Of a stretch of DNA of 64,000 bases, positions 7,690 to 60,072 are shown in pieces. The notes beneath the pieces are model-generated. The model did no database searches. It was not told where the DNA came from and worked only from the letters and a program-made list of their open reading frames with translations. The position numbers were made by a program, and so were the translations under genes. Position 1 is the first letter of the stretch, and each line of letters opens with the position of its first letter. The DNA comes from Tessaracoccus sp. OH4464_COT-324 (GTDB lineage: Bacteria; Actinomycetota; Actinomycetes; Propionibacteriales; Propionibacteriaceae), in contig NZ_RQYZ01000009.1 in the NCBI RefSeq assembly GCF_003932855.1, positions 1-64,000 of the forward strand, in the 5' to 3' direction.

Positions 7690-9093
7690 TCAGGACCCCT
7701 TCGGCGCCGCCCGCAGATCGATCAGCGCCGTAGCACACGCCGCCACCACCGTCGCCGAGATCAGGCCGAAGGCCGCCAGGAAGGCGAACTCCCACCCGTG
7801 GGTCGGCGTCAGCACGAAGAACACCGCCGTGATCGCCGCAGCACCGATCGCGCTGCCCACTCGCTGCCCCGTCTGGATGACGCCGCCCGCAGCGCCAGAG
7901 TCCGCGGGAGCCACCTCCAGCAGGCTCAACGTCTGATTCGGGCTCACCACTAGTCCCTGCCCAACGCCCAGCAGCGCTACCGTCGCGGCAAGCCACGCCG
8001 GATGCACGCCGTAGGGCCGAGCCCAAACCACCAGCATTGAGGCCAGCATCGAGGCCAATACCACCAAAAGCCCGACGAGCACCAGCCGCCGCCCCACCTC
8101 CAGCACCCGCCGCCCCGCATAGGACGAGAAGACGCCCGTCGCGAGCGCAGCGGGCAACCCGATCAGCGCCGCAGCCAGCGCACTCCAGCCGTGGCCGCGC
8201 TGCAGGTAGAGCGCCAACACGACGTGCACGCTGGTCACTCCGGTGAACTGCAACCCGATCAGCGCCGTGCCGAACGCGAAGCTGCGAATCCGAAACAGGC
8301 TGATCCTCACCATCGGTTGCCCGCCGCGCGCCGCATGGCGTTGCTCCCAGTGCACCCAGGAAGCCAGCAGCGCAAGCCCCACCGGCACCACGGCGAACAC
8401 CACCGGTCCGGGGCCCCGCTCCAGAAAAGGCAGCATCAGACACAGCATGGCTACGGTAAACAGCGCCACCCCCACCGGGTCCAGGTCCGCGCGCGATTCG
8501 CGCCGTGCGCCGAACGCCTCCCGCGGAAACCACGCGAGCGCCAGCCCGACGATCAACACCGTCACTGGGACGTTCACCAAGAAGGTGAGCCGCCAGCCGA
8601 GATCATCGCCCAACAACCAGATCGCGGCCCCGCCCATCAGCGGGCCAACCGAAACCGAGAGCCCCACCGCCGCGCCGAAGCTGCCGAAGGCCCGCGCCCT
8701 GGCTCGCCCCGAGAAGAACTGCTGGATCAGGCCGATCACCTGCGGATTCACCATGCCCGAGCCCACGCCCATCAGCAGGCGCGCGGCATCCAGCAGTATG
8801 CCGCCTGAGGCCAGGCCTGCGATCAGCGAACTGAGGCCGAAAATTGCGATGCCGCCGACGAACAGCCGACCTCGGCCGTACACATCACCGGCCCGGCCCG
8901 CCGGCACCAGCACCACGCCGAAGGTCAGTGCGTAGCCAGCCAGCACCCATTGCAACTGCGAGTCGGTGGCGGAGATGGACGACTGGATCGCGGGCAACAC
9001 CACGTTGATGCTGGAGACCGACATCATCGTTAGGAAGACGGTAGTCAGGCTCACCGCGAGCACCCTGCGCTGAGCCGCTCCATCGTCGGACAT
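7690..9093 (-). CDS. MFS drug exporter, DHA2-type with 14 membrane segments
   Basis: The 467-residue product has about 14 hydrophobic segments in the pattern of the DHA2 (EmrB/QacA) proton-driven exporters. It has the motif A-like loop GRAGDVYGRGRLFVGG between TM2 and TM3 and a motif C-like stretch in TM5 (AAVGLSVSVGPLMGGA). The frame is open to 9156, but the ATG at 9093 has a good ribosome binding site (AGGAG) and begins just before TM1. Substrates are unknown; small toxic organics are typical. It diverges from a PaiB-like gene across 86 bases, and no dedicated TetR/MarR regulator adjoins it. Confidence 0.85.
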   Translation of the reverse strand: MSDDGAAQRRVLAVSLTTVFLTMMSVSSINVVLPAIQSSISATDSQLQWVLAGYALTFGVVLVPAGRAGDVYGRGRLFVGGIAIFGLSSLIAGLASGGILLDAARLLMGVGSGMVNPQVIGLIQQFFSGRARARAFGSFGAAVGLSVSVGPLMGGAAIWLLGDDLGWRLTFLVNVPVTVLIVGLALAWFPREAFGARRESRADLDPVGVALFTVAMLCLMLPFLERGPGPVVFAVVPVGLALLASWVHWEQRHAARGGQPMVRISLFRIRSFAFGTALIGLQFTGVTSVHVVLALYLQRGHGWSALAAALIGLPAALATGVFSSYAGRRVLEVGRRLVLVGLLVVLASMLASMLVVWARPYGVHPAWLAATVALLGVGQGLVVSPNQTLSLLEVAPADSGAAGGVIQTGQRVGSAIGAAAITAVFFVLTPTHGWEFAFLAAFGLISATVVAACATALIDLRAAPKGS

Positions 9094-9179
9094 CCGGGAT
9101 CTCCTCTCTGGAGGTAACCTACCCTCAGTGGCGGGCTCGGCCGATGGCGGGCTCACAACGTGGGCCTACACTGGGTGCC

Positions 9180-9848
9180 ATGTACGTGCCCAACCATTTC
9201 CGCATCCCCGACGATGAGCTTGCTCGTATCCTGTCGGTGGCCCGCGGTGGAAACCTGGTGACGGTGCACCCCGACGGGCCCCGAGCCACCTACATTCCCG
9301 TGCACCTAGAGGAGCGCGACGGTCAGCAGGTGGTGGTGACGCATCTGGTGCGCAACAACCCGTCAGCCCGCGACATCATCGCCGATGGGCTGGTGATCAT
9401 CGACGTGGCCGACGCCTACGTCTCGCCGGCCTGGTACGCGACGAACGAGCAGCTACCCAACGTGCCTACCTGGGACTACATCACGGTGCACCTCACGGGC
9501 AAGGTCACGGTGGATACCTCTCCCGAGGGCGCGCTGCGTGCGGCGCGGGTGCTCACCGAGCGGATGGGCGAGGAGTGGTGCCTGGAGCTCGTCGGCGAGG
9601 AGAAACTGGCGAAGATGGCGCGGGCCATCGTCGGGGTGGAGCTGGTGGTGGAGCGGGTCGAGGCGAAGGCCAAGATGAGCCAGAACCGGCATCCCGACGA
9701 TGTGGCCAGCCTGCTCGCGCACTTCGACGAGCACGGGCCAGGGGAGCTGGCCGACTACCTGCGCGACGTGAGCCTGCCCTATGCGCGCAGCCGATTCGAG
9801 TCGATCGAGCGCACTCGCGCCCGGGAGCTTCGGGCGTTCGGCAAGTGA
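9180..9848 (+). CDS. PaiB-family FMN-binding protein
   Basis: The product (222 residues) begins MYVPNHFRIPDDE, the classic opening of PaiB/FMN-binding negative regulators, and continues with a split-barrel flavin-binding domain (ATYIPVHLEE, YVSPAWY). The C-terminal helical region contains MSQNRHPDDVASL, matching the conserved KLSQNR segment of the family. PaiB was named in Bacillus as a repressor of sporulation and protease genes, but many members are probably flavin-linked enzymes. TACACT lies seven bases before the ATG, so the mRNA is likely leaderless. Divergent placement from the MFS exporter is noted; a regulatory link is not shown. Confidence 0.82.
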   Translation: MYVPNHFRIPDDELARILSVARGGNLVTVHPDGPRATYIPVHLEERDGQQVVVTHLVRNNPSARDIIADGLVIIDVADAYVSPAWYATNEQLPNVPTWDYITVHLTGKVTVDTSPEGALRAARVLTERMGEEWCLELVGEEKLAKMARAIVGVELVVERVEAKAKMSQNRHPDDVASLLAHFDEHGPGELADYLRDVSLPYARSRFESIERTRARELRAFGK

Positions 9849-48572: not shown

Positions 48573-48615
48573 GTGGAGTTCCGAAGCGGGCTTACGTCTG
48601 GAGGTAAAAGGTGAT
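48573..48615 (+). repeat. Diverged second copy of the ychF 3' end
   Basis: This stretch encodes VEFRSGLTSGGKR and a stop, almost the same as the true ychF end, and the downstream gene again begins with a GTG overlapping that TGA. No other part of ychF precedes it. It reads as the replaced tail of an earlier insertion, or as a tail carried by incoming DNA. Confidence 0.85.
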
Positions 48616-51220
48616 CAACACAGATGCGGGGGCGCGCTGGATCCGGGCTGCGTTGCAGGTCAACCCCTTCACCTATGAGGGGCGAAATTCGCCGAAGACA
48701 TTCTTCAGCGACGAGGCTGCCTACAACTCCGCGCTCTTAGATACGTGTCAGGAAATGGGCATTAGCATGATCGCTGTGACCGACCATTGGTGCGTCGACT
48801 CGGCAGCGGGCCTTATCGCTGCCGCTGAGGATCGTGGAATCGTCGCCCTTCCAGGGTTCGAGGCGAACTCGTCGGAGGGGATTCACATCCTGGTCATCTT
48901 CGAGGCTGGGACACCTATTGCGACAATCGATGCTGCTATTGGTCGGTGCGGAGCCACCCCTGGGTGCAACAATGGGACTACTGGCGAACCATTTGCGAAG
49001 ATCATGGAGCACATGACCGCTGCTGGAGCATTGCCTGTTCCCGCCCATGTGAACGTAGAGCCTGCCGGGCTGCTGACGACTCGCTCGGGCCAGCCGCTTG
49101 CGATGATGATTCTGCACGAGGATCTTCATGCCATTGGCGTATCGCCAAATGCCAAACTAGCCAAGGATCAGGAGGCGGTTGTCAACGGGAGCGGGATCTT
49201 TGAGCGTGTTCACCCTTTAGCAGTGATCCACGCCGACGACGTTATGGGTCCTCGTCAGCTGCGTCAACCCGGTGCAAGCACATGGTTCAAGGTCAGTTCG
49301 TGCTCGCTTGAGAGCTTGAAACTTGCAGTGAGGACACCAGAGACAAGAGTGTCCCTCGATGACCCACAGTCGAAGCCACAGCCCCGCATCAAGAGCGTGT
49401 CGTGGGTCGGGGGATACTTCGATGGGGTAACTGTGCCGATCTCCTCTGACTTGACAGCGCTCATCGGTGGAAGGGGCGCTGGAAAGTCAACTGTGATCGA
49501 GAGTATCCGTTATGCGCTCGAGATCCAGCCGATATCGGCCCAGATGGTTCGGGATCACAAGGCAATCGTTGACCAAGTGCTTAACGTGGGCACGATTGTG
49601 CGCGTTGAGGTTGAGAGCGTTGCTCCGACTCTCCAGAGCTACACCATCCAACGAGAGGTACCACATCCACCAGTTGTGCTGGATTCTGCGGGCATACGTA
49701 CCAGTCTCGCTCCTGCTGACGTAATCGGGGCGGTGGAGGTATTCGGCCAGCATGAGCTGGCGGAGCTTTCTGGTGATTCAGATAGCATTGCCAAGCTCAT
49801 CAGGCGCTTTAATGGCTCCGTCGGAGAAGATCCGGCGTTGGAGGACGTCCGCAAGCGGCTGCGTGAGAATCGAGAAGAACTCAGGAAAGCCGAGGAGGCC
49901 AAGGTAGAGCTTGAAGAGGAGTTAGCGCAAGCTGACCGTCTTGAGGAGCAACTCGATCGGTATAAGGAAACCGACGTGCCCGGTAAGCTTCGCGGGCACG
50001 AGCAGATTACTTTGGATCAAGCGGTATTCACAGAAGGGACGTCGCGGATAGCTGCGGCCAGAACCTTGCTGGACCAGTACCGAAAGTCGGCATCGCTGAC
50101 GAATCTCGATGCGGTGATCGACAACATTGACGGTGCACCGCAGATGGAGCGACTGTCTCGCGTGAAGACCACTCTGGAGGATCTACGTCGAGTGCTGGAA
50201 GAACTTGGCGACCAGGCCGCTGACGCGATCAATGCAGCGCAGGCTGAGATCCAGGCTGCCCAGGCTGATTGGGAAGCTGCTACTAGCGTTGAGAGGGAGG
50301 GCTACGGAGAGGTGCTCCGATCTCTCGCTGATGAGGGGCTTGATCCTGGTAAATACATCGCAGCCAAGGAGAGGCTGGCGTCGATTAAAGCCGCAGCGCC
50401 TCGCCTGGATGCAAACGCCAAGGTGATCCGGGAATTGCTCGAAGCGCGCAGCGGCATGCTTGACGAGCTCCGTGCTCACGAGACGGACGCGACCGAGCGC
50501 CTGCACGAGGCGATCAGGTCTGCGAACAATGCCGCAGGGGGCGTTGTGGTGGTGAAGCCCTTGCCGACCAAGGACCGCTCACACGTCGTCGACTTGATTA
50601 AAGCTAAGGTCTCCGGTCAGAGGACGCAGATAGTCGCGGCTATCCAAGAACCGACATTCTCCCCGCAAGCGCTCGCCGAGGCGATCAGGGCTGGCACTGA
50701 AGAACTCGCTAAGTTGGGGATTCGGGGGGCGCAGGCGTCGAACCTGCTCGGGGTTGGAGAGGAACTGGCCCGCGAGCTGGAAGAGCTGACGTTAAGCCTC
50801 GGAGTCGAGGTGCTACTCATGATCGACGGACTGCAGGGGCTCCGGAGCCTCGATCAGCTCTCGAAGGGGCAGCGAGCCACCGCTTTGCTTCTACTTCTTC
50901 TCAGTGCTTCCGACGCGCCTCTGATCATCGACCAGCCAGAAGACGACCTTGACAACAATTTCATCTATAAGGGAGTGGTCCGGCACCTACGTGAACTGAA
51001 AGGTAAGCGGCAGATCATCGCGAGCACCCATAATGCAAACGTGCCCGTGCTTGGCGACGCAGAGCTCATCGTGGTCCTCGAAAACGATGGGGATCATGGG
51101 CGCCCGTCTGATTCGGGTGTTGGCTCGCTTGATGACCGAACCATCCGCTCTCTGGCGGAGAACATTCTCGAGGGCGGGCCAGCAGCCTTCAATGCCCGTC
51201 AGCACCTGTATGGGTTCTGA
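48611..51220 (+). CDS. PHP-SMC ATPase of the TrlF type
   Basis: The 869-residue protein has an N-terminal PHP-like domain (about 8-265) with the motifs IAVTDHW (57-59 TDH) and PGFEANSSEGIHIL. An SMC/ABC-type ATPase follows, with Walker A GGRGAGKST (286-294), a coiled coil (about 395-640), the signature LSKGQRATALLLLLL and Walker B LIIDQPEDDLDNN. The usual first PHP metal motif HxH is LQVNPF here (Gln16, Asn18), so metal chemistry may be altered or the motif may differ in this branch. PHP-SMC proteins are expected to act in conflict or defence; not shown here. GTG start overlaps the ychF-like tail. Confidence 0.82.
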   Translation: MINTDAGARWIRAALQVNPFTYEGRNSPKTFFSDEAAYNSALLDTCQEMGISMIAVTDHWCVDSAAGLIAAAEDRGIVALPGFEANSSEGIHILVIFEAGTPIATIDAAIGRCGATPGCNNGTTGEPFAKIMEHMTAAGALPVPAHVNVEPAGLLTTRSGQPLAMMILHEDLHAIGVSPNAKLAKDQEAVVNGSGIFERVHPLAVIHADDVMGPRQLRQPGASTWFKVSSCSLESLKLAVRTPETRVSLDDPQSKPQPRIKSVSWVGGYFDGVTVPISSDLTALIGGRGAGKSTVIESIRYALEIQPISAQMVRDHKAIVDQVLNVGTIVRVEVESVAPTLQSYTIQREVPHPPVVLDSAGIRTSLAPADVIGAVEVFGQHELAELSGDSDSIAKLIRRFNGSVGEDPALEDVRKRLRENREELRKAEEAKVELEEELAQADRLEEQLDRYKETDVPGKLRGHEQITLDQAVFTEGTSRIAAARTLLDQYRKSASLTNLDAVIDNIDGAPQMERLSRVKTTLEDLRRVLEELGDQAADAINAAQAEIQAAQADWEAATSVEREGYGEVLRSLADEGLDPGKYIAAKERLASIKAAAPRLDANAKVIRELLEARSGMLDELRAHETDATERLHEAIRSANNAAGGVVVVKPLPTKDRSHVVDLIKAKVSGQRTQIVAAIQEPTFSPQALAEAIRAGTEELAKLGIRGAQASNLLGVGEELARELEELTLSLGVEVLLMIDGLQGLRSLDQLSKGQRATALLLLLLSASDAPLIIDQPEDDLDNNFIYKGVVRHLRELKGKRQIIASTHNANVPVLGDAELIVVLENDGDHGRPSDSGVGSLDDRTIRSLAENILEGGPAAFNARQHLYGF

Positions 51221-53384: not shown

Positions 53385-53906
53385 ATGCATTCAGAACAAC
53401 AACATTTGCAGTTTGATGACCTTGCGATCGCATTCTTACAGAACCCCGATGAGTCGATAGCAAAGACTCTCCGTGAAGCTGTTAGTAACCTACCGGATTT
53501 TGAAATTGCGGCAAGAGGCTTGGCTGATTTGGTCCGAGCTGTGGATCGTGGAGAAGAAGACTTTGCTTTCACTCATCTAGTCCAGCAGAGGAAAGCGCTA
53601 TTCCTAAGTCCGCTTGCTCACCAGCTGCTGAGTGATGGCTGGCGAAGGCGTGGAAAAAGTGATCTGGCTGACCTTGAGCAGCGGCTTGCTGCTGCAAGTT
53701 TGGCAGTCCTGCTGGAATCTGGTGATGGCTCTGAGGGGCGGCCTTACGTGGTTCTAAGAGTGTCTGACGAGTATGACGTTCTTCGCTACCTAAGCTTTCA
53801 CTATGCGTCGCAGGGGGTTGTCTCACTTACTCCTCGTAAGGATGTATTTATTAGTTCGAATGGGGGGCGACTGTTCTTTGAGTTTTTTCAGGGAGGAGTG
53901 CTGTGA
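53385..53906 (+). CDS. Unknown protein, first gene of the peptidase operon
   Basis: The 173-residue soluble protein has an N-terminal helical half (FDDLAIAFLQNPDESIAKTL, RGLADLVRAVDRGEEDFAF) and a beta-rich end (PYVVLRVSDEYDVLRYL, DVFISSNGGRLFFEFF). No family is recognised. TAGTCT six bases before the ATG makes this the leaderless start of the operon. It is clearly lower in GC than the flanks: one sampled 60-base line (53461) has 28 G+C. By analogy with type VII loci it could be a chaperone or adaptor, which is speculative. Confidence 0.6.
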   Translation: MHSEQQHLQFDDLAIAFLQNPDESIAKTLREAVSNLPDFEIAARGLADLVRAVDRGEEDFAFTHLVQQRKALFLSPLAHQLLSDGWRRRGKSDLADLEQRLAAASLAVLLESGDGSEGRPYVVLRVSDEYDVLRYLSFHYASQGVVSLTPRKDVFISSNGGRLFFEFFQGGVL

Positions 53907-54511
53907 GGTTTCGAGAAAGCTCCCAGGCTATAACGGTCTTGGAAAGCCGGACAGCTTCGGCTTTAATCTCTCTCGTAGAATTCACGGATGGCCGCTGCAC
54001 GGCACTGCAACTACGACCCGCGGTGACGAATGTAGACCTGGATGCTCTAGGTGAGAGATTGTCTGCGGACGCGCAGCTTATTAACCAGGCTTGGGCGCAA
54101 CACCGCCAAGAGGTGCTGTCCGCGACGATGAGCGAGTATGCTGTCGCAGATACCGCTTCCATGCAGGTCGTTCTTGACTTTGCCAAACAAGTCCGTGATC
54201 AGATCGAAGACGCGGAAGCGTGTCCTGCCGTTTCGCGTGGTGCCGGTGAGAGTCGAATCGAGGCCGAATCGGTTTCGCTGATTTGTGAAGGGGATCGCAT
54301 TGTCCGAGTCGAAGTTTCACTTCCCATGGGCGTGGATCGAGTGAGGCAGCGAATAGAGTCGGGGATGATGTTGGCCATTAATTCCAACCTGGAGCGGCGA
54401 GACTCTGATGTAATGACGGTAATGGAAATCGCCCAAAAGGAAAACTCCGGCTCTCTTCAATGGGACGAGTTGGCCGAAGAAATCATTAACCAGAAGAAGG
54501 GAATCTATTGA
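53903..54511 (+). CDS. Unknown protein, possibly YbaB/EbfC-like
   Basis: The GTG start overlaps the previous stop (GTGA). The 202-residue product has a beta-rich front, a central helix (LSADAQLINQAWAQHRQEV) and a back segment SLICEGDRIVRVEVSLPMG followed by a long helix. That segment loosely matches the YbaB/EbfC pattern (strand-turn-strand, then helix). YbaB-like proteins often stand next to WXG100 genes in actinobacterial type VII loci. The likeness is weak, and the assignment rests partly on context. Confidence 0.45.
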   Translation: MRFRESSQAITVLESRTASALISLVEFTDGRCTALQLRPAVTNVDLDALGERLSADAQLINQAWAQHRQEVLSATMSEYAVADTASMQVVLDFAKQVRDQIEDAEACPAVSRGAGESRIEAESVSLICEGDRIVRVEVSLPMGVDRVRQRIESGMMLAINSNLERRDSDVMTVMEIAQKENSGSLQWDELAEEIINQKKGIY

Positions 54512-54825
54512 TGAGTGATGTAGTCTTCTCTCCGTCATCATGGATGAAATGTAGCCAAGAAGTCGAGGAAATTAGACAAGGATTCCAGGAGGTTACTCAA
54601 GATATTCTTTTCCCGACCCCTGAGCGAACTGAATATCAATCGGCCGTGGACAGGACCCTCTGTGAAGGAATGTTGGGGCTTCATCCGAAATGGTTCAACT
54701 CAATTGGAAACATGGTCGAGAAGCTAAACTCTGATTCATCGAAGATGGCAGCAACGGCAAACAATTATCAGGCGGCGGAAACTTCTTCGGAGTATGTAGT
54801 CCGCCGCTACTGGAGCTACAAATGA
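54511..54825 (+). CDS. Small helical protein of WXG100 size
   Basis: The 104-residue protein is almost wholly helical, with a break at LHPKWFNSIGNM near residue 60, which could form the turn of a helical hairpin. WXG100/ESAT-6-type type VII substrates have this size and shape, but here the turn reads W-F-N rather than W-x-G, and no YxxxD/E signal is seen at the end. ATG 54511 overlaps the preceding TGA by one base. It is followed by an overlapping peptidase gene, the usual order partner-then-toxin. Confidence 0.5.
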   Translation: MSDVVFSPSSWMKCSQEVEEIRQGFQEVTQDILFPTPERTEYQSAVDRTLCEGMLGLHPKWFNSIGNMVEKLNSDSSKMAATANNYQAAETSSEYVVRRYWSYK

Positions 54826-55892
54826 TAGAAAACGTAATTTACGCAGCTGCTGGGGTATACCCGCCTGTTATTAGCCCTGAATCGTTCGATGCGAGAAGTC
54901 GGAAATATGCTGAACTGGCTAGCGTGTCGGCAGACCTCAGCCACGACCTGCGCTCCGCCGTGCAGACTGTACTACGTAAAAACGAAGGGCCGACGGTAGA
55001 TGCATTTTATCAGCGTATGCAGGGTGCGGGTTCCGCTCTTCATCAATTCGAGAGGATCAGCGAACGAGCGGCTGCTGCCTCTGACGCATTTGAAGAGATA
55101 GCCCGTCTACTGTCCGACACGCGCTCCAAGATGCAGGCACGAGCCAAAGAGGCGGCGCACGTGATCATGATGCTGCTGCGAACCATGGACTATACCACTA
55201 AGCCCAAGGTGAGGTTCATTCTGGAGACGGCTCAAGAAGACCTTCGGCGTCTTGAAAACAAAGCCGCAGCGAAAGCGTCATGGCTGATCTACTCCGCCTA
55301 TCCTCCCGGGCTGATAGATATCTCTCGACAGCGGCCGAACGAATCCTTGACCCCTCAAGTCGAGTCCACCTGGGACAGCTTGTCTGATGAACAGAAAGAG
55401 AGAATTCTCCGCCTGCTGGCCGAAGATTATGCGAAGCAGCATGGGATTAAGGTGCCGCCGATTGAAATAGTGCCATCGGATAAGGCGTTTTTCGTGACGG
55501 AAACGGTAACTTCTGATGGAGAGAAAGAAAAGACGCTGGCTCCCTACAGGGGTCTATGGGAGGGCGGTGTCCTCAAGATCAATCGTGATAGCCTTAAGGA
55601 CGCTGTTGCCATGAACGTTATCATCCATGAAATGACCCATGCTGTACAGCACGAAGCCAACAGACTCGTCGAGGGTAGACGCTTTTGGCCGGCCGGGCCG
55701 ACGGATTTCCGCAGGCTTGGTCTGACTCCCGAGGAAGCGGAAAGGCTCTACGAGTCCAGCAAGCAATACCGTAACTCCGGGGAGTACTACGGCCGAGCCC
55801 CGGTTGAGATTGACGCTGGGCGTGCGACGAACGAGTTTTCTGACGACCTCACGGTGGCCAAGCTGAAGGAATATGTGCGCCGTGTCAGCTGA
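54822..55892 (+). CDS. Helical-domain protein with C-terminal zinc metallopeptidase domain
   Basis: The 356-residue protein has a helical N-terminal half (about 15-150), beginning VYPPVISPESFD, which resembles the targeting domains of type VII secreted proteins in shape. The C-terminal half holds HEMTHAVQHE (His269, Glu270, His273) and GRAPVEIDAGRATNE, where Glu329 is a likely third zinc ligand as in HExxH...E peptidases. No signal peptide is seen. ATGA overlap with the small helical protein and an 11-base overlap with the lipoprotein gene bind it into the operon. A secreted toxin or effector peptidase is the leading idea. Confidence 0.65.
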   Translation: MIENVIYAAAGVYPPVISPESFDARSRKYAELASVSADLSHDLRSAVQTVLRKNEGPTVDAFYQRMQGAGSALHQFERISERAAAASDAFEEIARLLSDTRSKMQARAKEAAHVIMMLLRTMDYTTKPKVRFILETAQEDLRRLENKAAAKASWLIYSAYPPGLIDISRQRPNESLTPQVESTWDSLSDEQKERILRLLAEDYAKQHGIKVPPIEIVPSDKAFFVTETVTSDGEKEKTLAPYRGLWEGGVLKINRDSLKDAVAMNVIIHEMTHAVQHEANRLVEGRRFWPAGPTDFRRLGLTPEEAERLYESSKQYRNSGEYYGRAPVEIDAGRATNEFSDDLTVAKLKEYVRRVS

Positions 55893-57069
55893 TTTTTCTC
55901 GTCGGTGGTTGTTGGCCGGTGGGGCGCTGAGCCTAGCCGGTTGCGTGGATTCTTCAGGGCTGTCCTCGGGGGATGGTTCCGCTGCGGTTGAGCAGTGGAC
56001 GGCCACTTCTCCTTCCTCTGTGCCTGAGATGCCGAAGGTTCCGAGGGTGAGTGGCTGTGAACTGAGCTCGTCTGGCTCCGGAGGCTACGGTTTGTGTGGA
56101 ACCTCCGACAGCTTCGACATCATCACCGATGCTGTGTATATGTCTGGGCTGTATGTTTCGCCCGATGGAGCCTGGGTCGCTACGGGGCATCAGGGGAGGA
56201 TGTATGTGTGGAACTCGACGACAGGGCAAGTATCTTTCGATGCGGGTTATATTCCGTTTGTAGAGTTTGCAGCTTGGAGCGTGGATAGCGCGGAGTTTGT
56301 GGTTGCGGACTGTAAGAATATTCGCCGTTATGATGCGGCCTGCGGTGGCTATTTCGGTAGCTATTCTGGGCACGTAGCCAAGCAGGTCAGCCATTTCATG
56401 ACGCTGGTGCGCGACGGTAAGTTCACCCCGGATGGCACGAGGCTGTTGACCTTGGGGGCGGATAATACTATTCGGGCCTGGTCGGTCGCCAGCGGGCGGC
56501 AGATTGGTCAGGCTAAGCCAGATAGAACGGGTCACTCCTTCCTGCTGGCTCCAGACGGAACGCGCGCTACGCTGATCCACCAGGAATTGGACGAAGAGGG
56601 CAACACGCGGAGCCGGTATCAGCGGTCGTTCGACCCGAACACGCTGTTGCCGACCGGGGACTGGGAGGAAACCACCGACAGGTGGCTTTCCCGTTTCCTG
56701 GGCGACGACAAGCTGCTTTGGGAAAGTAAAGAGGGCGCTTTTGTGACCAATCTGGATGGGGGAGATGAACAGGCTCTGCTCCCTGACGACAAAGAGTGGG
56801 GCTGGTTCGGTTACTCTGCATCGACCGACAATTTCCTCATTTCTTTCAGGTCTGCCGGCGTCGCTATCGTCAGCCTGGATGGCCGCCGGGTGATCATCCC
56901 CAATCCTGAGGATGAGGGGAAGTACACGATAAGCTATTTCTTTAGCACGGGAGAGTTCAGTCCGGACGGTTCGATTGTTTACCTTGTGCATCCGATAACG
57001 GGCCCGGCCGCCTACGACGCGGCGACCGGCGAGAAGCGGCTGCAATTCGAGACCCCGGCGAGTGAGTGA
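55882..57069 (+). CDS. Tat lipoprotein with beta-propeller domain, copy 1
   Basis: The 395-residue protein begins with a twin-arginine signal and lipobox, SRRWLLAGGALSLAGC (Cys about 20). WD40/propeller-like blades follow (SPDGAWVATGHQGRMYVW, FTPDGTRLLTLGADNTIRAW). GTG 55882 is chosen over ATG 55873 because the paralogue at 57340 starts at the equivalent codon. It overlaps the metallopeptidase gene by 11 bases. The conserved N- and C-terminal parts and a divergent middle compared with copy 2 suggest a variable binding face. An immunity or surface receptor role for the peptidase is inferred. Confidence 0.75.
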   Translation: MSADFSRRWLLAGGALSLAGCVDSSGLSSGDGSAAVEQWTATSPSSVPEMPKVPRVSGCELSSSGSGGYGLCGTSDSFDIITDAVYMSGLYVSPDGAWVATGHQGRMYVWNSTTGQVSFDAGYIPFVEFAAWSVDSAEFVVADCKNIRRYDAACGGYFGSYSGHVAKQVSHFMTLVRDGKFTPDGTRLLTLGADNTIRAWSVASGRQIGQAKPDRTGHSFLLAPDGTRATLIHQELDEEGNTRSRYQRSFDPNTLLPTGDWEETTDRWLSRFLGDDKLLWESKEGAFVTNLDGGDEQALLPDDKEWGWFGYSASTDNFLISFRSAGVAIVSLDGRRVIIPNPEDEGKYTISYFFSTGEFSPDGSIVYLVHPITGPAAYDAATGEKRLQFETPASE

Positions 57070-57339: not shown

Positions 57340-58527
57340 GTGTCGGCGCTTTTTTCTCGCAGGTGGTTGCTTGCTGGCGGGGCGTTGGGCCTCGCTGGTT
57401 GCTGGGATTCTTCTCTAGTATCGGAGGATAGCTCCACTGCGGTTGAGCAGTGGACGGCCACTTCTCCGTCCTCTGTTTCTGAGTTGCCGAAGGTCCCGAG
57501 GATTGCTGAATGTGACCCGCGTTCGGTGGGTTCCGAGGGTGATCATTTTTGCCGGACTGTTGGGAGTTTCGACATCATCACCGATGCTTCGTATGCACCT
57601 GAACTGCTTGTTTCGCCCGATGGGTCCTGGGTTGCAGCGGAGTACCAAGGGAAGATGTATGTGTGGGACTCCACGACAGGACGGGTGTCCTTCGACGTGG
57701 GTTCCGTCCCATTCGTCGGCTTTGAGGCATGGAGCGTGGATAGCGCGGAGTTTGTTGTAGCCGACTGTAAGGAGATCCGTCGTTACGACGTGGCGTGCGG
57801 CGGCTACTTCGGCGGTTATGCGGGGCACGTAGCCAAGCAGGTCGACCACTTCATGGTGCTGGTGCGCGACGGTAAGTTCACCCCGGACGGCACCAGGCTG
57901 CTGACGCTGGGCGCGGATGGCACGATTCGTGCCTGGTCCGTCGCCAGCGGACGCCAGATTGGTGACGCAAAGCCCGACCGGCCAGGAGACTTTCTTCTGC
58001 TGGCTCCAAGCGGATCGTATGCGATGCTGGTGCGCCGAAAGCGCGACGAGAACGGGGCATGGCAGGGTACCGACTACCGGCTGTTCGACCCCAACACCCT
58101 GCTGCCCACCGGAGACTGGCAAAAGGCTCCCGAAGAATGGCCGCGCGGTTTCCTCGGCGAGAGAAGGGCGATTTGGGACGGGGAGAGCGGAGTCGTTGCT
58201 GCCAGCGTGGACGATCCCCGGGGCGAGGCGCTGCCGCCCGAGGAGAAAAGCGCCCACCTTCTCGCGGTTTCGGCCCCGAGCGAAAGCTATGTCGTCGGGC
58301 TGCCCGCCACATCTGAAGCCGCCATCGTCCGAGCCGATGGGCAAATCACGATGATTTCGGCGGTGCCCGCCGAGGACGGCCAGAGCGTGATCTACGACTT
58401 CGCGGGCGGCGGGTTCAGCCCCGACAGTTCGATTGTTTACCTCGTGCATCCGATAGCGGGCCTGGCCGCCTACGACGCCGCGACGGGCGAGAAGCGGCTG
58501 CAATTCGAGACCCCGGCGAACAGCTGA
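57340..58527 (+). CDS. Tat lipoprotein with beta-propeller domain, copy 2
   Basis: This paralogue has exactly the same length as copy 1 (395 residues) and the same Tat lipobox start (SRRWLLAGGALGLAGC). Stretches such as GKFTPDGTRLLTLGAD and YDAATGEKRLQFETPA are nearly identical, down to 29 unbroken identical bases; residues about 210-350 are much less alike. It has its own upstream region with a GAGAGG ribosome site before GTG 57340, so it is separately expressed or reads through the hairpin. GC is higher than in the operon head. Confidence 0.75.
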   Translation: MSALFSRRWLLAGGALGLAGCWDSSLVSEDSSTAVEQWTATSPSSVSELPKVPRIAECDPRSVGSEGDHFCRTVGSFDIITDASYAPELLVSPDGSWVAAEYQGKMYVWDSTTGRVSFDVGSVPFVGFEAWSVDSAEFVVADCKEIRRYDVACGGYFGGYAGHVAKQVDHFMVLVRDGKFTPDGTRLLTLGADGTIRAWSVASGRQIGDAKPDRPGDFLLLAPSGSYAMLVRRKRDENGAWQGTDYRLFDPNTLLPTGDWQKAPEEWPRGFLGERRAIWDGESGVVAASVDDPRGEALPPEEKSAHLLAVSAPSESYVVGLPATSEAAIVRADGQITMISAVPAEDGQSVIYDFAGGGFSPDSSIVYLVHPIAGLAAYDAATGEKRLQFETPANS

Positions 58528-58597: not shown

Positions 58598-58741
58598 GTG
58601 CCCAATCCCGGGTGGGTCCCGGAGCGAAACTCGCCCTTGGCCGTCGGGCGCGGAGAGATGGAACCGACGGCTCCCGGGCCGACGCCCGGGTCGTCGGTCC
58701 AACTCCGAAAATTGATCGCCACTCGGTGTTATCATCGCTCT

Positions 58742-59122
58742 ATGGCGATTGAAGAATCCGAGGCTGAGTTCCACGGCCTGGACGAGGGTAACGCCCACGC
58801 GCTGCTGTTCCACGCGCTCTCCGAGCCGACGCGGCTCGCGATCCTGCAACACCTCGCCACCGGCGAGCACAGAGTGCGCGACCTCGTCGAGCACATGCAC
58901 CTGGCGCAGTCGACGGTGAGCAAGCACCTCGCCTGCCTCAGGGACTGCGGCCTGGTCAACCACCGCGCCGAGGGGCGGTCCTCCTGGTTTTCCCTGGCCC
59001 ACCCCGAGCTGCTGGCCGCCCTGCTGGGCAACTCCGCCGCGCTGCTCGCGGCTTCCGGCCGGACGCTGTCGCTCGGAGAACACGAGCTGCGGGCGGCCAT
59101 GCTCACCAAGGACGAGCCATGA
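58742..59122 (+). CDS. ArsR/SmtB-family metal-responsive repressor
   Basis: The 126-residue winged-helix protein has the ArsR core FHALSEPTRLAILQHLATG and recognition helix LAQSTVSKHLACLRDCGLV, followed by the wing HRAEGRSSWFSLAH. Cys in LACLRDCGL and His residues (HRAEGR, AHPELL) could sense metal; the pattern recalls CmtR/CzrA-like sensors. TATCAT six bases before the ATG gives a leaderless start. The repressor gene overlaps the CDF transporter gene (ATGA), so it most likely controls its own metal efflux operon. ATCGCCA (58715-58721) and TGGCGAT (58743-58749) flank the promoter as a possible operator. Confidence 0.85.
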   Translation: MAIEESEAEFHGLDEGNAHALLFHALSEPTRLAILQHLATGEHRVRDLVEHMHLAQSTVSKHLACLRDCGLVNHRAEGRSSWFSLAHPELLAALLGNSAALLAASGRTLSLGEHELRAAMLTKDEP

Positions 59123-60072
59123 GCCACGCCCACAGCCACGCCCACGCGCACCTGCCCGGCCACACGGCCACCGACGTCGGCGCACGTCGGCGACTGCTCG
59201 TCGCCTTCTGCCTCGCGGCTGTCATCGTGCTCGCCCAGACGGTGGGCAGCATCGTCACCGGCAGCCTGGCGCTGCTCACCGACACCGCGCACGCCCTGGC
59301 GGATGCCTCGGGGCTGCTCGTGGCGCTGATCGCGGCCAACATGATGCTGCGCCCGCCCAGCAGCCGACGCACCTGGGGTTTCGCGCGGATCGAGGTGATA
59401 GCTGCGCTCGGCCAGTCGGTTCTGCTGCTGGTGGTTGGGCTGTACGCCGCCGTCGAAGGGGTGCACCGCCTGTTCGAGCCCGCGGAGGTGCCGCCTACGG
59501 AGCTGCTCGTCTTTGGCGTCGTCGGCCTGCTCGCCAACCTGGCGGGCGTCGCGGTACTCGCGTCCCACCGCAGCGCCAACTTCAACATGCGCGCCGCCTT
59601 CCTGGAGGTGCTGAACGACGCGCTCGGCTCGGTGGGGGTCATCGTCGCTGCTGCGGTGATGCACTACACCGGCTTCCATCGTGCCGACACCATCGCCGCG
59701 CTCTTCATCGCCGCGCTGATCGTTCCGCGAGCCTTCCGCCTGCTTCGCCAGACCCTGAGCGTCCTGATGGAGTTCGCACCGCCCGGGGTCGACCTCGACG
59801 AGGTGCGCCGCCACATCCTGGCGCTGGAACACGTCAAGGAGGTGCACGACCTGCACGCCTCGACGATCGGCACCGGGATGGCGGTGCTGTCCGCCCACGT
59901 CGTCGTGCAGGACGAATGCTTCGTCTCCGGCCACGCCCCGCACATACTGGAGCGGATCACCCAATGCGTGGCCGAGCACTTCCCGGTGGCCTTCCACCAC
60001 GCGACGATCCAACTCGAAACCTCCGCGCAGCGGGCGCGGGGGTCGGAGGGGCATCCGGCATGCCTAGGATGA
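59119..60072 (+). CDS. Cation diffusion facilitator metal efflux protein
   Basis: The 317-residue CDF protein has a His-rich cytoplasmic start (MSHAHSHAHAHLPGH), six hydrophobic helices, and the TM2 and TM5 metal-site residues in LLTDTAHALADASG (HxxxD-type) and FLEVLNDALGSVGVI. The C-terminal cytoplasmic domain (VHDLHASTIGTGMAVLSAHVVV) is the usual dimerisation unit. CDF proteins export zinc, cobalt or cadmium in exchange for protons. It is the effector of the ArsR pair. A leaderless promoter for the next gene follows its end. Confidence 0.9.
   Translation: MSHAHSHAHAHLPGHTATDVGARRRLLVAFCLAAVIVLAQTVGSIVTGSLALLTDTAHALADASGLLVALIAANMMLRPPSSRRTWGFARIEVIAALGQSVLLLVVGLYAAVEGVHRLFEPAEVPPTELLVFGVVGLLANLAGVAVLASHRSANFNMRAAFLEVLNDALGSVGVIVAAAVMHYTGFHRADTIAALFIAALIVPRAFRLLRQTLSVLMEFAPPGVDLDEVRRHILALEHVKEVHDLHASTIGTGMAVLSAHVVVQDECFVSGHAPHILERITQCVAEHFPVAFHHATIQLETSAQRARGSEGHPACLG

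Follow-up and report, generated by a model that had tools for sequence, protein, structure and literature searches.

The antibacterial toxins of type VII secretion systems (T7SSs) have been worked out mostly in Firmicutes, and to our knowledge the purpose of the ESX systems of most Actinobacteria is largely open. The present analysis concerns an operon of five genes, termed g1 to g5, together with a downstream copy of the last (g6), within the first 64,000 nt of contig NZ_RQYZ01000009.1 from Tessaracoccus sp. OH4464_COT-324; this whole stretch is referred to as the window. Judged by sequence, the locus is probably an operon for a polymorphic toxin of a type VII (ESX-type) system, with a chaperone (g2), a WXG-like pair (g3 and the N-terminal domain of g4, g4N), a peptidase toxin (the C-terminal domain of g4, g4C) and immunity proteins in the cytosol (g1) and at the surface (the WD40-like lipoproteins g5 and g6). 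This reading is favoured because ESX genes are present in the genome, cassette and toxin are exchangeable, and g1 and the WD40 gene track the peptidase. Earlier work already describes polymorphic T7SS toxins, zincin toxins and immunity genes next to them (PMC3482391).

For the delivery genes, a parallel is offered by the mycobacterial ESX-1 sets EspA–EspC–EspD and EspE–EspF–EspH, each being a substrate pair with a YbaB-like proposed chaperone; the YbaB-like EspH binds EspE, EspD stabilises EspA and EspC, and both are proposed to be dedicated ESX-1 substrate chaperones (PMC6107294). Unlike in these sets, the larger partner of the present operon bears exchangeable toxin domains, candidate immunity genes are adjacent, and the host is not a mycobacterium. 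EsaD–EsaG and other LXG or WXG toxins of Firmicutes likewise combine a helical T7 part, small partners, a toxin and adjacent, partly tandem, immunity genes; in keeping with EsaD, the toxin-type open reading frames (ORFs) of two loci considered below (L137 and L138) are Endonuclea_NS_2 proteins. In contrast to these Firmicute toxins, the toxin is a separate ORF in seven of the eight loci L136–L143, and we know of no YbaB-like partner from Firmicute T7SSs.

With regard to immunity, TelC–TipC of Streptococcus intermedius unites a T7SS toxin with a membrane-anchored, extracytoplasmic immunity protein, and its tandem TipC paralogues are 58 % identical (PMC6193138), compared with 62 % for g5 and g6. 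TelC is a lipid II phosphatase, whereas the toxin considered here is a predicted zinc peptidase with an extra cytosolic partner and a beta-propeller-like surface lipoprotein. A further comparison is with Tox-JAB-1, which is a JAB peptidase. By its description, this toxin is also strictly tied to a lipobox lipoprotein, Imm65, the only lipoprotein immunity protein of that collection (PMC3482391); the present toxin differs in its HExxH motif and its different partner, and has a cytosolic partner besides. Two unrelated immunity proteins per toxin occur with Tde5, a DNase of a type VI secretion system, for which two unlike immunity proteins are called unusual; Tdi5a and Tdi5b bind that toxin simultaneously, forming a ternary complex, and Tdi5b is described as widespread in other contexts (PMC13392607). 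Unlike Tdi5a and Tdi5b, g1 and the WD40 protein are on opposite membrane sides by prediction, and both stay with the toxin. A Xanthomonas lipoprotein immunity protein is also protective when made in the cytosol (PMC10933484). The occurrence together of a cytosolic and a surface partner for one toxin is unusual. Searches of open-licence literature returned nothing from 2019 on that joins T7SS, YbaB and toxin, nothing joining T7SS, metallopeptidase, WXG100 and immunity protein, and nothing joining polymorphic toxin immunity, lipoprotein, WD40 and type VII.

The initial annotation of the locus described five ORFs overlapping at all four junctions, and these are present in the sequence as claimed: GTGA is shared by g1 and g2, TGATG by g2 and g3 (an alternative g3 start being TTG at 54508), ATGA by g3 and g4, and 11 bases by g4 and g5. 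Its description of the DNA as low in guanine plus cytosine likewise holds, with values of 0.47–0.55 for g1–g4 and of 0.58 for g5, positions 1–46000 of the window having 0.68. The five-gene arrangement is beyond chance, as two further sets of the five gene families exist in the genome and another 13 strong peptidase loci are found in 12 related genomes.

Profile searches covered 146 related genomes and, separately, 394 genomes spread over the class; hereafter, C denotes a contig of the strain's own genome, L a locus and G a related genome. Amongst the 146 genomes, 16 strong peptidase matches (E below 1e-40) occur in 13, with weak matches in two more (G091 and G042). Co-occurrence across genomes, raised in the initial annotation, is borne out for two of the genes: all 16 strong loci have g1 within ~2 kb and contain a WD40-family ORF, the profiles that locate these genes having been iterated on those same loci. 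Strong g1 matches number 18, in 15 genomes, with 16 of them beside the 16 peptidases, one in G001 (at L078, beside a short g4 relative) and one in G012; weak g1 matches are found in four genomes, besides a split copy in G008. The N-terminus of the peptidase is g4N in 10 of the 16 loci (on a separate ORF in L076) and a different one in the other six (L068 and L071–L075). That of L068 is the T7SS_signal domain (PF21725, 1.1e-28), and those of L072, L074 and L075 match no T7SS family in Pfam. Conversely, the fetched g4N cassettes without the peptidase possess neither g1 (0/11) nor a WD40 gene (0/11; Fisher 7.7e-8, the loci not all being independent). These 11 controls are C3 and C134 of the strain's own genome, L077, and L136–L143 (L139 having two g4N copies), and represent the fetched loci only, not all N-domain-only matches. 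It is the toxin domain, rather than the N-terminus, that g1 and the WD40 gene track, and in this they behave as immunity proteins do.

T7SS polymorphic toxins are recognised by a shared N-terminal domain joined to unlike C-terminal domains, by a toxin domain that also occurs behind other N-termini (here the peptidase, in 6/16 loci), by ESX genes in the genome and by neighbouring partner genes that go with the toxin domain, all of which are seen here. On these comparisons, the operon is composed of two exchangeable modules, a putative delivery module (g2, g3 and g4N) and a putative warhead module (g4C, g1 and the WD40 gene). Gene order varies amongst the loci, with gene content constant. In the 10 loci with a shared N-terminus, the closest correlation with g4N distances is shown by g2 (r 0.79) and g3 (r 0.81), which fits the expectation for delivery partners; over 15 loci, g1 and WD40 distances correlate with peptidase distances at r 0.54 each, species kinship not being removed. 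Within the class-wide set, where scoring was confined to 8 or 9 candidates per genome from a first look, strong matches to the peptidase and to g1 coincide at the same six places in the same four genomes. Since all four had members in the profiles, this test amounts to neither being strong without the other. Weaker matches, to the peptidase in two more genomes (3e-6 and 9e-6) and to g1 in 10 more (1e-5 to 1e-3), do not overlap. A housekeeping operon is ruled out by the presence of strong peptidase matches in only 13 of the 146 related and four of the 394 class-wide genomes, a patchiness that agrees with the accessory character first ascribed to the locus. One locus was kept out of both the 16 and the 11: L078 (5817–7488, in G001) harbours g3, a short g4 relative (HELHH) and g1, with no WD40 gene found, and is perhaps a decayed or minimal form.

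The strain's own genome (2.76 Mb in 217 contigs, the window being on C196) was searched for the EccC- and EsxA-type genes that the initial annotation had named, and such genes are present. Contig C25 contains a 1377-codon EccC-like frame with three FtsK/SpoIIIE matches, and encodes a YukD-domain protein as well as two WXG100 proteins that exceed the Pfam cut-off. A type-VII-secreted peptidase, as originally suggested, is supported by these genes, by the profile alignment of the g3 family with WXG100-type proteins, by the T7SS_signal-fused peptidase of L068 and by patchiness, secretion and toxicity themselves being inferred. Two more operons are located on C136, with g1, g2, g3, g4 (HESRH) and a WD40 gene; one of their WD40 proteins is without a signal, and the other, encoded on the opposite strand, is a lipoprotein. 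On contigs C3 and C134, g2 and g3 are accompanied by a protein whose N-terminus is of the g4N type and whose C-terminus is different, and small, unlike genes come next. The N-termini of these two proteins match g4 of the window at 5.6e-9 (L013) and 5.8e-5 (L014), with their C-termini unmatched at E ≤ 1e-3. Overall, g4N is matched (E ≤ 0.001) 82 times in 36 of the 146 genomes, including six times in the strain's own genome.

Within the delivery cassette, g2 had been described as loosely YbaB-like. In its family, YbaB_DNA_bd matches (E ≤ 0.05) are seen in nine of 20 aligned members (best 5.1e-8); g2 of the window itself has no Pfam match, YbaB/EbfC (PF02575) included, and returned one match in a PDB profile search (E 0.74). 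By analogy with EspH and EspD, g2 is best read as a candidate chaperone of the secreted substrate. A role as a DNA-binding regulator was set behind this, since YbaB-like proteins of ESX-1 are proposed to be substrate chaperones (PMC6107294). The alignments omit L141 for g2, L066 and L067 for g3, and L067, L069, L070 and L076 for g4N.

The reading of g3 as a helical partner of WXG100 size is upheld in part. Comparison of the g3 family with five WXG100-type proteins by hhalign gives a probability of 94 (E 9.5e-8), the five comprising two over the Pfam cut-off, two weak, and one of 120 amino acids (aa) picked by size and place only. A C-terminal YxxxE is present in 18 of 20 aligned members, that of the window amongst them; YxxxD/E is a T7 export signal. 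On the other side, g3 falls under the cut-off for WXG100 (PF06013; E 0.044, 14.5 bits, cut-off 27.3), only one of 20 family members matches that domain at E ≤ 0.05, the central WxG motif is absent from the g3 translation of the window, and a PDB profile search with g3 returned nothing. For g4N, WXG100_2 (PF25547) is matched at E ≤ 0.05 by 10 of 17 aligned members (best 5.1e-12), g4N of the window having no such match, and N-x-G is found in 17 of 17.

The C-terminal domain g4C is predicted to be a zincin (gluzincin-like) peptidase by its HExxH and downstream Glu motif. Both the HEMTH motif and Glu329, as pointed out previously, are present, and H269, E270, H273 and E329 are identical in all three g4 copies of the genome, Glu329 sitting within PVEIDA. 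Across 16 aligned domains, HExxH is kept in all, and a PxExDA-type Glu follows in 15, the frame of L073 stopping before it. DUF6782, a putative metallopeptidase family, is weakly matched by seven of 16 members (best 2.5e-4), with no match for that of the window. A PDB profile search with g4C found no sequence relative at E ≤ 1, and a scan of the genome contigs with g4 as query returned no relative. An anti-phage reading of g4 was set aside, as PADLOC gave solely PDC-S67, at E 0.0021 over 35 residues of the helical part.

The initial annotation left g1 unassigned; by profile, this protein is DUF4919-like. Whilst g1 of the window is below the cut-off for DUF4919 (PF16266; 5.3e-5, 23.6 bits, cut-off 29), its relatives in L012 (29.6), L068 (33.4) and L075 (29.1) exceed it, and the domain is matched at E ≤ 0.05 by 15 of 15 aligned family members (best 6.6e-10), a set that omits L067 and L074 and takes in L078. 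No mention of DUF4919 was found in the open-licence literature searched. A PDB profile search with g1 gave 12 weak matches, several of the TPR type. The protein is without a signal, and the Kyte–Doolittle score, KD(17), exceeds 1.9 in none of the 15 members, indicating that there is no membrane segment.

The description of g5 as a Tat (twin-arginine) lipoprotein is confirmed by pattern: its start, MSADFSRRWLLAGGALSLAGC, has a twin-arginine and a lipobox, the latter within RRWLLAGGALSLAGC, and g6 is similar. This second copy, just downstream and 62 % identical, was absent from the initial annotation. Against WD40, g5 scores 2.2e-4, below the cut-off. A lipobox is seen on the WD40 protein of 15 of the 16 peptidase loci, a broken copy counted. 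The lipoprotein pattern rule alone catches 12/16; in the three others, L067, L070 and L075, a proline falls within the hydrophobic stretch. The strain's own genome has four strong matches to the family, none of them away from the three peptidase operons, and the best match after these is at 4.2e-6. The proposal of the lipoprotein as an immunity or receptor candidate stands insofar as a WD40-family ORF accompanies the peptidase in 16/16 loci. It is no longer the sole candidate, because the co-segregation of g1 with the peptidase is just as strict, and by sequence g1 is an immunity candidate at least as good as the lipoprotein.

Other cargo is found on the same cassette. In L136–L143, g4N is an ORF of its own (~160–180 aa), with a nuclease- or deaminase-type ORF next in seven of the eight, such that toxin and delivery domain are split in seven. 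This neighbour is a DNA/RNA non-specific endonuclease (PF13930, Endonuclea_NS_2) in L137 (5.1e-25) and L138 (4.4e-25), a GH-E-type ORF in L139 (0.0014) and L142 (1e-4; both below cut-off), with relatives by BLAST in L136 and L141, and a YwqJ-deaminase-type ORF in L143 (8.3e-5, just below cut-off); in L140, no toxin was recognised. Behind the nuclease of L138, four tandem paralogues of 155–157 aa (7746–9663) are probably an array of immunity genes. A second toxin family, in L013, L014 and L077, has g4N joined to an unnamed C-terminal domain and immunity-type neighbours of one family. In both L014 and L077, one neighbour copy lacks a lipoprotein signal and another carries one (the two being 38.6 % identical in L014), and L013 has only the form without. 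By the lipoprotein pattern rule, the split cassettes L136–L143 have no same-strand lipoprotein signal within 2.5 kb (0/8), as expected if the targets of nucleases and deaminases are cytoplasmic. The pairs of the second family and the signal-free split cassettes form a pattern, at few loci, that is not proof but supports a predicted guard on two sides. The features described are collected in Table 1.

Table 1. Coordinates of the operon, its domains and motifs, and of the paired copies of the second toxin family. Positions are those of the window unless a locus is named.
Feature	Position	Strand	Description
g1	53385..53906	+	173 aa, DUF4919-like; candidate cytosolic immunity protein
g2	53903..54511	+	202 aa, YbaB-like; candidate substrate chaperone, EspH/EspD type
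g3	54511..54825	+	104 aa from ATG; WXG100-like partner, C-terminal YxxxE (YQAAE)
g4	54822..55892	+	helical N-terminus and predicted zinc-peptidase C-terminus
g4N	54822..55301	+	N-terminal helical delivery domain of g4 (putative), NxG motif (NEGPTVDAF)
g4C	55302..55892	+	C-terminal zinc-peptidase domain of g4, predicted toxin
HEMTH motif	55626..55640	+	predicted zinc-binding motif, His269–His273 of g4
Glu329	55806..55808	+	predicted third zinc ligand of g4
g5	55882 (GTG start)..57069	+	395 aa, Tat lipoprotein, WD40-like beta-propeller; candidate immunity protein at the surface
g6	57340..58527	+	tandem copy of g5, also with Tat lipoprotein signal
Paired copies, second toxin family	L014:6218-7125 (C134); L077:3768-4781		candidate immunity copies

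In the mechanism proposed, g2 would stabilise the pair of g3 and g4 in the cytosol, with g3 and g4N pairing as a WXG100-like helical bundle. The NxG turn from g4 and the YxxxE tail from g3 may then form a composite export signal, by which the ESX machine would export the g3–g4 pair. Once exported, g4C would cleave a protein of competing bacteria, with the target probably located at the membrane or beyond it. Within the producer, g1 may keep the peptidase inactive, and at its surface the lipoprotein g5, and its duplicate g6, would neutralise it. What the sequences themselves display is the gene content with its modularity and co-segregation, the conserved motifs and the ESX genes; pairing, export, toxicity, the side of the target and both immunity roles are inferred.

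A number of observations weigh against this reading. No Pfam cut-off is passed by g2, g3 or g4N of the window; hhalign returned nothing for g2 against a single YbaB sequence, or for the g4N family against the WXG100-type set, and YxxxE is missing from g3 of L012 and L140. Several family assignments are carried by relatives and not by the window's own proteins. The WD40 protein of L011 is without a signal, and the WD40 gene of L071 is broken. Without a detected peptidase, g1 is present in G012, ~220 bases from a contig end, and in G008, where it is split over two frames in a genome taken as 60 % complete. Finally, in the 10 loci with a shared N-terminus, WD40 and peptidase distances correlate at only r 0.22 (p 0.098, kinship not removed). 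Both g1 and the WD40 protein could instead be a chaperone, an anchor or a target.

One such alternative, in which only g1 is the immunity protein and the WD40 lipoprotein is a MafA-like surface anchor or receptor holding the exported T7SS toxin, appears unlikely. It draws on a lipobox surface protein that goes with MafB toxins and is a proposed anchor (PMC3482391), and on the distances of g1, which in the 10 shared-N-terminus loci track the peptidase (r 0.585, species kinship not removed) more closely than those of the WD40 protein. MafA, however, goes with the conserved N-terminus, whereas the WD40 protein goes with the toxin domain (16/16, including six with other N-termini, and 0/11 without it), by which a MafA-like partner of the N-terminus is disfavoured; furthermore, g5 is tandemly duplicated in the window, as is often the case for immunity genes. 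The roles may be reversed, with only the WD40 lipoprotein conferring immunity, as TipC does, and g1 acting as a domain-specific chaperone or inhibitor before export, which we consider distinctly improbable. The weak TPR-type matches of g1 would suit this role, as the TPR fold often serves protein–protein binding, and TipC works outside the membrane and has tandem paralogues (PMC6193138). The occurrence of g1 without a detected peptidase in G012, and in broken form in G008, is more like that of a left-over immunity gene, an argument limited by the contig end in the former and by completeness in the latter. Scarcely credible is a role unconnected with bacterial competition, namely that of a peptidase exported by the T7SS to process nutrients or host proteins, g1 being a helper and the WD40 lipoprotein a surface docking site. 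Members of the genus do inhabit animals and people, and no target is known, but the same cassette bears ORFs of nuclease and deaminase type that have small genes next to them (four in tandem in L138), which, together with the patchiness (13/146), is the pattern of antibacterial polymorphic toxins.

A broader proposal can be advanced tentatively, with somewhat more doubt than confidence. A guard on both sides of the membrane may be a feature of actinobacterial T7SS peptidase toxins, with g1 silencing the toxin in the cytosol ahead of export and the unrelated WD40 lipoprotein stopping it at the surface when it returns. This feature may recur independently in the second toxin family, in which a single domain is encoded both with and without a lipoprotein signal, and the cassette of YbaB-like chaperone, YxxxE partner and NxG domain may be a general one, equivalent to EspACD and EspEFH, for interbacterial warfare. 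A YbaB-like/WXG-like cassette with exchangeable toxin-type domains would thus provide a testable link from Esp-type chaperoned substrates to bacterial warfare. Paired cytosolic and surface partners, if truly so, would mean that one toxin is blocked in two compartments, which bears on the fate of T7SS toxins after export.

Two further gene sets of the same genome resemble T7SS loci. On C163, the set at L017 (8160–11122) encodes a protein of 286 aa that contains a YbaB domain (5.7e-12), a small, weakly EspC-like protein (0.0045), a protein whose WXG100 domain exceeds the cut-off, and one that has a hydrophobic segment. On C25, L018 (8898–11333) encodes a 120 aa protein, then a 423 aa protein with a weak WXG100-type N-terminus, followed by a 119 aa protein without a signal and a 167 aa probable lipoprotein, and is possibly a further case of a two-sided guard. 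Within the window, next to the operon, positions 58598–60072 (+) encode what we take to be an ArsR-type regulator and a CDF-type metal transporter. Upstream, at 48611–51220 (+), an 869 aa protein combines a weak PHP match with an AAA_21/SMC-type ATPase and is matched by PADLOC to Ppl (1.8e-35), making it a candidate phage-defence gene.

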